DNA from: Halorubrum sp. Hd13
GTDB taxonomy: Archaea > Halobacteriota > Halobacteria > Halobacteriales > Haloferacaceae
Direction of reading: 5' to 3'
Length of the DNA stretch: 55,168 nucleotides
Assembly (NCBI RefSeq): GCF_002252755.1
Contig: NZ_NHOY01000051.1
Coordinates: forward strand, 1 to 55,168
Translations under genes and position numbers: made by a program
In this document: positions 3,020-7,806 of the stretch, one piece after another
Layout of the letters: every line of letters begins with the position of its first letter
How positions within the stretch are numbered: the first letter of the stretch is position 1
Notes under the pieces: generated by a model
What the model was told of the DNA's origin: nothing
The model's input: the letters and a program-made list of their open reading frames with translations, nothing else
Database searches by the model: none

Positions 3020-3454
3020 TCACTGACACCGGTTCTGTCGGAAGGTCACGTCGAAGACCGACTGCAGAGTGACGTAGAGCACCTCGCCGTAGGTGGCGCC
3101 CGGCGGACAGTCCGGGACGAACGTGTACTCACCGATGAGGCCGAGTCCCGAGACGTGCACGCGAATCAGCGCCCGTGCGGACTCGAAGGCGTCCTCGATC
3201 ACCGACAGGGCCTCCTCCGGACCGGACGGGCCGACGGAGATGGTCTGCTGGAACACTACGTTCTCCGAGAGTCCCGACTCCACCGCGGCCGGGAGCACTT
3301 CGAGTTCGATCGTTCGTTCGGCGTCGAAGTCGCCGCCGACCTCGATGGTCACCGTCTGTGGGTCTCCGAACCTCTCTCTGAGAGAACAGCCGCCGAGTGC
3401 CCCGAGCACACTCGTTCCGAGCGTCCCGAGAATCGCTCGCCGCGTGCGCTCCAT
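3020..3454 (-). CDS. Predicted lipoprotein, unknown function
   Basis: The 144-residue product starts MERTRRAILGTLG and has a twin-arginine-like N terminus, a short hydrophobic stretch and a lipobox (LGALGGC, Cys23), so it is probably exported and lipid-anchored. The mature part is beta-rich (VTIEVGGDFDAERTIELEVLP) and has two further cysteines near the C terminus. I chose the ATG at 3452-3454 because the signal begins there; the frame runs farther upstream into the tRNA-Arg repeat field. It converges with the antiporter gene across a 48-bp gap. No family is recognised. Confidence 0.8.
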   Translation of the reverse strand: MERTRRAILGTLGTSVLGALGGCSLRERFGDPQTVTIEVGGDFDAERTIELEVLPAAVESGLSENVVFQQTISVGPSGPEEALSVIEDAFESARALIRVHVSGLGLIGEYTFVPDCPPGATYGEVLYVTLQSVFDVTFRQNRCQ

Positions 3455-3523
3455 GTCGCGTTGCACCTCGTCCGGTTTCTTCAACGTTGGGGCTCGGCGA
3501 CCGAGCGGCGGAGCCCCGAACGG

Positions 3524-3614
3524 GCGAGCGTGAGGCACGTCAGGACCGAACGCCGCGGCTGCCGAACGAAGTGAGGCAGCCGCAAAGTGAGCGTCCTGAC
3601 GGAGATTTGAACTC
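3524..3614. repeat. 91-bp direct repeat, copy 1, carrying the tRNA-Arg 3' end
   Basis: This copy is identical to 3807-3897. Its right end (3592-3614) is the T-arm and 3' acceptor strand of the tRNA-Arg gene at 3875-3947. The other 68 bp copy the sequence just downstream of that tRNA. It includes a hairpin with 8-bp arms (cggctgcc/ggcagccg). Confidence 0.95.
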
Positions 3615-3720
3615 GGAAAGACCGTCGGCCTCGCTTCGTCGCCGGCGCTTCGCGCCGGCTGCCTGCGAGACCGAAGGTCTCGCTTCGCTCGGCCGCTGCG
3701 ACTTTCCTGCTCAAATCTCC
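3601..3720. repeat. Imperfect long inverted repeat built on the partial tRNA-Arg T-arm
   Basis: The bases ggagatttga (3601-3610) and tcaaatctcc (3711-3720) are perfect inverted copies. Inside them ggaaag (3615-3620) pairs with ctttcc (3702-3707). The partial tRNA end is thus the left arm of a large hairpin, whose interior is filled with smaller hairpins rich in gcttcg and ctcgcttcgctcg. Confidence 0.85.
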
Positions 3721-3724
3721 GCGG

Positions 3725-3780
3725 CGTTTTCGGACACACGCACGGCTCGCGGTGCTCGCCGTTTGGTGTGTCCGAAAACG
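3725..3780. repeat. Perfect 15-bp inverted repeat with a 26-nt loop
   Basis: The arms cgttttcggacacac (3725-3739) and gtgtgtccgaaaacg (3766-3780) are exact reverse complements. The element lies inside the tRNA-Arg repeat field, directly before a degraded third tRNA-Arg tail (3779-3797). Confidence 0.93.
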
Positions 3781-3806
3781 TTCTGACGGAGTCTCACGCG
3801 AGCGAA

Positions 3807-3897
3807 GCGAGCGTGAGGCACGTCAGGACCGAACGCCGCGGCTGCCGAACGAAGTGAGGCAGCCGCAAAGTGAGCGTCCTGACGGAGATTTGAACTC
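3807..3897. repeat. 91-bp direct repeat, copy 2, overlapping the complete tRNA-Arg
   Basis: This copy matches 3524-3614 exactly and enters the tRNA-Arg gene by 23 nt (3875-3897). The two copies are separated by 192 bp of hairpin-rich sequence. Confidence 0.95.
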
Positions 3898-3947
3898 CGG
3901 TCCCTGGCTCCGCAAGCCAAGAGGATAGTCCACTACCCTACCAGGAC
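3875..3947 (-). tRNA. tRNA-Arg (anticodon GCG)
   Basis: The minus strand folds as a full cloverleaf. The acceptor is GTCCTGG/TCAGGAC, the D-stem GGGT/ATCC, the anticodon arm TTGGC-TTGCGGA-GCCAG with anticodon GCG, the T-arm GGAGT-TCAAATC-type, and the discriminator G. No CCA is encoded, so the 3' end needs tRNase Z and CCA addition. There is no intron. Its 3' part is duplicated downstream. Confidence 0.93.
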
Positions 3948-7295: not shown

Positions 7296-7631
7296 GCGGC
7301 ACCGACCGGCGATCCGGGACCCGACGGACGCGCCGATCAGGCGGCTTCGCTCGTCGGTTAGCGTCGACAGAAACGCCCGGAGCGGGGTTTGAACCACAAT
7401 CGTTCCGCTCGTTTCGCTCGCGTCACTCTCTGATTCACACCCGCAGCGATCGATTTCGACGAACGGCTCGCTACGCTCGCCGTATTGTTCGGAGAAAACG
7501 CCCGGAGCGGGAGTTGAACCCGGAGGACTTCGTTCACTCCGTTCGCTCGTCCTCAGATTCAACTCCCTGCGAAACGATTCGTCGCCGCCGGTATCGACTC
7601 GCTGCGCTCGTCGATTGGCGGCGACAGAATA
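7296..7631. repeat. tRNA-Asp trailer repeat field (two tail units)
   Basis: This stretch downstream of the tRNA-Asp pair holds no credible gene. Two partial tRNA-Asp 3' ends lie at 7374-7395 and 7499-7520, each one mismatch from 7632-7653. Each is followed by hairpins of the gttcgctcg/cgagcgaac type and by a complement of its T-arm: ttcacaccc (7435-7443) for the first and ttcaactccc (7558-7567) for the second. Confidence 0.85.
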
Positions 7632-7704
7632 CGCCCGGAGCGGGATTTGAACCCGCGTCACGACCGTGACAGGGTCGTATGATGGGCCACTACACCATCC
7701 GGGC
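7632..7704 (-). tRNA. tRNA-Asp (anticodon GTC), copy 1
   Basis: The minus strand gives a complete cloverleaf with acceptor GCCCGGA/TCCGGGC, anticodon arm CGACC-CTGTCAC-GGTCG (anticodon GTC), T-loop TTCAAAT and discriminator G. No intron and no encoded CCA are present. The sequence is identical to the copy 102 bp away. Its trailer runs into the partial-tail repeats at 7374-7631. Confidence 0.95.
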
Positions 7705-7733
7705 AAACAGCGACAAAGCCCCGAAACGGGGGA

Positions 7734-7806
7734 CGCCCGGAGCGGGATTTGAACCCGCGTCACGACCGTGACAGGGTCGTATGATGGGCCACTACACCAT
7801 CCGGGC
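7734..7806 (-). tRNA. tRNA-Asp (anticodon GTC), copy 2
   Basis: This gene is identical to tRNA-Asp copy 1 over all 73 nt and lies upstream of it in transcription. Only 29 nt separate the two, so they are probably processed from one precursor. A TATA-like sequence (aaataaggc read on the plus strand, about 7836-7844) lies about 30 nt upstream. Confidence 0.95.

Follow-up and report, generated by a model that had tools for sequence, protein, structure and literature searches.

In archaea the T-loop dyads and 3' ends of tRNA genes are well-known attachment (att) sites, the repeated part running either from the T-loop to the end of the gene or covering the acceptor end only (PMC8371274). Tyrosine recombinases of the SSV, pNOB8 and SNJ2 types leave an att duplication there, with a second copy of the gene's 3' part lying downstream of a tRNA that remains intact. 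Haloarchaea also carry REP, MITE, PATE and SMR repeats, which are short, non-coding, mobile palindromes present in many copies, whilst in integrons the attC arrays consist of tandem imperfect hairpins of similar length, which keep a common structure while their loops vary and some internal positions stay unpaired, and which recombine as folded single-stranded DNA. The attC sites share the core motif GTTRRRY / RYYYAAC. Here we describe small non-coding palindromic modules, termed A, B and X, that in Halobacteria occur strictly in association with the 3' ends of tRNA genes, with the repeat found behind a tRNA-Arg gene of Halorubrum sp. Hd13 being one case of a class-wide haloarchaeal family of tRNA-tail hairpin modules. 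The family is apparently new to description, since no earlier account of such modules was found in the openly available papers searched.

The window, i.e. the whole stretch of DNA analysed, comprises 55,168 nt, and the features of the Arg locus all lie on its minus strand in the order tRNA-X-A-B-tail-X' when read in tRNA sense. The tRNA-Arg(GCG) gene (3874-3947; ARAGORN, Rfam RF00005), the 3' tail of which (nt ~52 to 73) is at 3876-3897, is followed by a first copy of module X (3780-3873), supported by covariation over 20 congeneric X units and made up of a first hairpin (3838-3866), the inverted acceptor end GTCCTGACG (3821-3829), a second hairpin (3794-3816) and a short acceptor copy, CTCCGTCAGAAC, which closes the module (3780-3791). 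This 12-nt copy, given in tRNA sense, differs by one base from the end of tRNA-Arg. The earlier note had read it as a third, degraded tail at 3779; the tail is real but it is not degraded, being the normal acceptor copy that X has in nearly all congeners. Abutting it is module A (3726-3779), a 14-bp hairpin (GTTTTCGGACACAC...GTGTGTCCGAAAAC) supported by compensatory change among congeners. Module B then begins with an inverted T-loop, GGAGATTTGA (3711-3720), as its 5' arm, continues with a core hairpin, GGAAAGTCGCAGCGGCC ... GGCCGACGGTCTTTCC (3615-3707), of a family also found at other tRNAs and with an enlarged terminal loop (3641-3681), and ends in a full and exact copy of the tRNA-Arg tail, GAGTTCAAATCTCCGTCAGGAC (3593-3614), as its 3' arm, the T-loop of which pairs with the inverted T-loop (helix 3). 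When folded as single-stranded DNA the A-B unit reaches a z-score of -7.2 against shuffles, and X a weaker one of -3.6. The array closes with a second, truncated copy of X (3524-3592), in which homology ends at 3524 within the second hairpin, with unrelated DNA beyond. Just past this breakpoint begins a 145-aa lipoprotein-like ORF (3023-3457, minus strand) without a Pfam match, and at this point the window lacks the remainder of X as well as the truncated A module that is usual there.

The exact 91-bp duplication that drew attention to the locus was confirmed, with 3524-3614 and 3807-3897 matching at 91/91 bases and the identity breaking off exactly at both edges. Each copy holds 22 nt of the tRNA-Arg tail plus flanking bases, and the repeat is simply the tail together with the first two thirds of X, which occurs twice in the array, the second time as the tail copy and the truncated X. 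The 192 bp between the two copies, which had been taken for the last remnant of a decayed integrated element, are instead complete structured modules, namely the end of X, hairpin A, the inverted T-loop and the core hairpin.

The tRNA-Arg locus was retrieved from 57 of 59 genomes and the trailers of 30 loci (the window, 28 congeners and G045 from another family) were tokenised into modules. In tRNA sense, X reads as hairpin, inverted acceptor end, hairpin and acceptor copy, A is one hairpin, and B consists of an inverted T-loop, a core hairpin belonging to a shared family, and the complete tail of the host tRNA in copy, so that every module is delimited by tail copies, 22 nt long in B and 12 nt long in X. 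The arrays take the forms T-X-A, T-A-B-T-X-A, T-A-B-T-X-A-B-T-X-A (L003, from the congener G032, with two A-B-X rounds) or T-X-X-X (L015, with X in tandem), modules being present or absent precisely. About fifteen of the 30 loci are tRNA-X-A' and about twelve are tRNA-A-B-tail-X-A'. The repeats are separated by 60-250 bp of structured non-coding DNA only, with no element genes or integrase. The att-like form of the locus thus holds, in that the tRNA 3' end is repeated and its copies bound modules, but the syntenic loci of congeners show whole modules gained or lost, with the A-B-tail unit intact in about 12 of them, and the interpretation of the array as a single decayed element was rejected once these trailers had been tokenised. 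Since gain and loss of whole modules at tail repeats explains the state of the array, the 91 bp are not the ends of one element. The window array probably derives from an A-B-X-A-B-X ancestor, as in G032, that lost its first A-B from between two copies of the tail.

Segments of the arrays are also found in reverse. In the second X of L028 a 46-bp segment between inverted acceptor ends matches at 46/46 positions as the reverse complement and at 2/46 directly, and two B cores, one behind tRNA-Val (L192) and one behind tRNA-Phe (L234, in G037), are flipped between their T-loops. As such cores are rare (62 of the 64 classified B cores have the usual orientation and two are inverted) no dedicated invertase is demanded.

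The Arg locus is not alone in the window. The parallel drawn by the earlier note with a tRNA-Asp ladder was borne out: the tRNA-Asp(GTC) gene (7632-7705, minus strand) has B-type units on its 3' side, with an inverted T-loop at 7558-7567 and tail copies at 7499-7518 and 7374-7393, all on the same strand. This gene is one of two tandem tRNA-Asp genes (7631-7806) that are identical over 74 bp and lie 102 nt apart, a doublet that several congeners share and that recurs at loci of Haloarcula and Haloferax (L111, L141, L144, L147, L150, L166). All 45 tRNA loci of the genome were retrieved, 41 genes being testable, and a tail copy was counted when at least 18 of 22 nt of a gene's own tail recurred within 500 nt. 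By this measure 13 of the 41 tRNAs have their own tail repeated downstream (21 copies in total) and none of the 41 has it upstream, whilst a control in which tails were exchanged among genes gave about 1 downstream match. Downstream copies were found at 15/38 and 10/31 tRNAs in genomes of two other haloarchaeal families, as against 1/24 in three outgroups of the phylum. That one case (L308, tRNA-Ala(CGC)) was rejected as a B unit, its exact tail copy being part of a simple tandem duplication that takes in the 3' flank as well. The suggestion that one process acted on both tRNA-Arg and tRNA-Asp therefore gains in scope, extending to at least 13 of the 41 testable tRNAs of this genome and to 16 isotypes across Halobacteria.

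The taxonomic range was assessed using a B pattern (inverted T-loop, 28-58 nt, direct T-loop) across one genome per species for 84,980 prokaryotic species, and Halobacteria accounted for 76 of 80 loci among the matches listed. Every haloarchaeal match tested lay 33-262 nt 3' of a tRNA, or had a tail adjacent, or was at a contig end, and no B unit was found away from tRNAs among them. Among 148 genomes sampled evenly from the phylum, the pattern occurred in 16 of 24 genomes of this order and in 0 of 124 others, with the reversed-pattern control giving no match in the same 148 genomes. Outside this group, a Woesearchaeota MAG (L129) has a B-like unit, with inverted T-loop, hairpin and full tail copy, 37 nt behind tRNA-Ser(CGA).

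We gathered 184 distinct B units from 16 isotypes, with the conserved arms GGTTCRAATCC / GGATTYGAACC and a recurrent T.T mismatch and internal loops. Their cores sort into families that cross isotypes (B1, GTCGCAG..GACCGTC; B2, GTCGCGCGCAGCG..CGAGCACGTC; B3, CAGGGAG..CGACCG), B2 occurring behind Ala, Gly, Arg, Ser, Leu and Asp tRNAs, and conserve the internal loops GTCGCAG/GACCGTC and CGCGCAG/AGCACG. In G113 a 58-nt stretch (GGATTTGAACCCAGGAAACC...GGTTTGCGCTGGTTCAAATCC) is the same at tRNA-Pro as at tRNA-Ser, the two copies diverging beyond the T-loop so as to match their own tRNAs. The arms are fitted to the host gene: at the variable T-loop position 57 the inverted arms match their own tRNA at a frequency of 0.91, compared with 0.58 for other tails, and the match fades past nt 63. 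An inverted arm spanning the whole tail was considered and rejected, a gapped test beyond nt 63 giving a weak excess of complementarity only, and the arm is hence the T-loop. What the units have in common is therefore this loop plus two to three pairs of its stem, a length close to that of a tyrosine-recombinase core.

The B-core terminal loops also share hairpins with a separate, dispersed and strongly structured intergenic repeat of several hundred nt in Halorubrum (L080-L085, L068-L070, L074-L079), which is found as well downstream of tRNA-Arg in L004-L006, L010 and L011. It reads GGTGGCGCGTGCC..GAGGGAGTCG..GAGGCTGGGGAGGCGTGAGG..GGACTCAAAGGGGCAG..GGCTGGGGCTTTGG, often with TTTATAAA at its flanks, and had no Rfam match at the loci tested. 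Dispersed matches to query positions 124-192 were rejected as tail units, as they mostly represent the enlarged terminal loop, common to this different repeat.

The modules retain their structure whilst their sequence changes. Among congeners, 8 of the 14 stem pairs of the module A hairpin show two-sided compensatory change, and within the genus so do 12/37 pairs of A/B and 6/25 pairs of X, with covariation scores reached by no shuffle; one-sided changes are few and two-sided ones greatly in excess. Stem mismatches over the 184 B units comprise 70 G.T and 85 A.C, i.e. there is no excess of wobble on the sense strand. This lack of a G.T excess, together with the mostly two-sided changes, argues against selection on a transcript, and the pattern fits a structure of the DNA itself, which would serve as a recombination substrate or result from correction of palindromes in replication.

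Comparison of the arrays reveals signs that the modules move and flip. Our best explanation, held with moderate confidence, is that they are DNA-level recombination sites or mini-elements at tRNA T-loops and 3' ends, served by a putative trans-acting tyrosine recombinase. Crossing-over in the near-universal T-loop (GGTTCRAATCC) would transfer cores between different tRNAs, at inverted T-loop or acceptor copies it would flip segments, and at direct tail copies it would add or remove whole modules, the tRNA always remaining intact; the likely enzyme would be a tyrosine recombinase, acting in trans, of the type with att sites in the T-loops and 3' ends of tRNAs. The presence and absence of modules and the inversions are consistent with excision and integration dependent on such a recombinase, and site-specific recombination at the ends of tRNA genes, which we regard as the most likely machinery, is a known process. 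A more tentative possibility, in our estimate a rather doubtful one, is that the modules are integron-like or attP-like sites of folded single-stranded DNA that parasitise tRNA genes, minimal hairpin cassettes integrating at the T-loop and the host tail being rebuilt each time; because the T-loop is universal, one recombinase could then address nearly every tRNA of the cell.

Against the recombination-site explanation, no linked recombinase was seen in the window: in agreement with the earlier note, none of the genome's 14 Pfam tyrosine-integrase hits falls there, the nearest integrase-like hits being on other contigs or kilobases from tRNAs. The elements that the earlier note proposed to look for did not turn up either, as searches of phage, plasmid and viral collections yielded no excised circle and no autonomous element with the locus, the B2 core or the exact tail, except for a chromid copy. 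The sole viral core match (L310) was rejected as a chance match within a proteobacterial-type phage gene, and inspection of the attP region of halovirus HF2 revealed no clear palindrome.

A serious rival, to which we give perhaps one part of our belief in four, requires no dedicated enzyme and attributes the arrays to replication-coupled template switching and short-repeat recombination. Palindromic T-loops and hairpins would stall replication, the nascent strand would switch, copy tails and correct quasi-palindromes, and array length would change by deletion between short direct repeats. Such deletion is on record in haloarchaea, including at 22- and 43-bp partial tRNA duplications (PMC3119063), and nearly all compensatory changes being two-sided, with few intermediates, is what palindrome correction would be expected to leave; wobble pairs without strand bias and the lack of a linked recombinase point the same way. 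Identical cores at two tRNAs could likewise arise if the T-loop they share mediated homologous recombination or a switch of template. Against this, the copies begin in the T-arm and end precisely at tRNA nt 73 at many tRNAs, core families are common to unrelated isotypes across families, and T-loops are universal, yet the units are restricted to one archaeal order.

It is unlikely that the modules are functional RNA, that is, 3' trailers transcribed with the tRNA, the hairpins of which serve tRNA folding, 3' processing or as small RNAs. A strong conserved secondary structure with covariation, conserved internal loops in the cores and the constant position of the units on the transcribed side of tRNAs would suit such a role, but G-U pairs do not exceed A-C in the stems, module presence and number vary freely among congeners, many T-rich stretches directly after the tRNA would end transcription, and in Rfam 15 only the tRNAs reached the gathering score, no family matching the modules.

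We disfavour as very unlikely the interpretation of the modules as remnants of ordinary integrative elements, with the tail copy as attR of a provirus or plasmid that lost almost everything. The position at T-loops and 3' ends of tRNAs, which are standard att sites in archaea (PMC8371274), the presence of 14 integrase-like hits in the genome and the extra distant tails with genes between at Natrialbaceae tRNA-Phe (L161, +2761; L174, +778) all count in its favour. The fixed architecture and length of the units and the cores shared at many isotypes are unlike random decay, however, units are cleanly present or absent within arrays, and the distant tails of L161 and L174 lack the B hairpin. These two tRNA-Phe loci each have a near tail plus the distant one, the intervening genes being ordinary, one of them encoding a small ABM-like protein. 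Finally, REP- or PATE-like palindromes moved by a single-strand transposase of the IS200/IS605 type with tRNA ends as preferred targets are extremely improbable, for although haloarchaea have many palindrome-ended non-coding elements (PATEs; PMC3119063) and parts of the core loops recur in structured repeats dispersed over the rest of the genome, IS605-type elements insert without duplicating their target (PMC3119063) whereas every unit here closes with a tail copy specific to its host, and B units were not found away from tRNAs.

If the recombination-site explanation is correct, many tRNA genes of a whole archaeal order bear shared, structure-based mini-elements reported by no annotation pipeline, and a recombination system able to use many isotypes via the universal T-loop may have these modules as its substrate or have left them as its footprint. 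This would bear on tRNA genes as integration hot spots, on the evolution of tRNA 3' flanks and on the origin of attC-like hairpin sites. Repeats of a haloarchaeal tRNA tail are, by themselves, no evidence of a lost provirus, and as the tails translate to spurious PPGFEPGT-like peptides they are likely to mislead annotators.

Compared with described systems, the modules resemble the haloarchaeal REP, MITE, PATE and SMR repeats in being short non-coding palindromes in many copies, but those repeats carry no tRNA tail specific to a host gene and also occur outside the 3' flanks of tRNAs. With attC arrays they share the tandem order of imperfect, folded hairpins of similar length that have unpaired positions, but membership among integron attC sites was rejected: the integron integrase (TIGR02249) scored above cut-off in 0/20 relatives, GTTCRAA, the conserved T-loop, departs from the attC core motif, and unlike integrons the arrays hold no gene cassettes and are tied to tRNA tails. 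Palindromic att sites at tRNA-Met of Bifidobacterium prophages (L095-L099, L117, L118), seen in bacterial genomes and prophage contigs, are a separate instance of an att region that is palindromic and derived from a tRNA, and are likewise built from a 3' portion of the gene with its T-loop, located at the ends of a mobile element; known from the pattern search only, they differ in being single, apparent prophage ends at one tRNA, with a near-perfect palindrome and no shared cores. The att duplications of archaeal tyrosine recombinases share with the modules the repeated tRNA 3' part and the intact gene, but here the repeats flank 60-190 bp of palindromic non-coding DNA rather than an element with its integrase, and they occur in both orientations, serially and at many tRNAs per genome, with cores shared between them.
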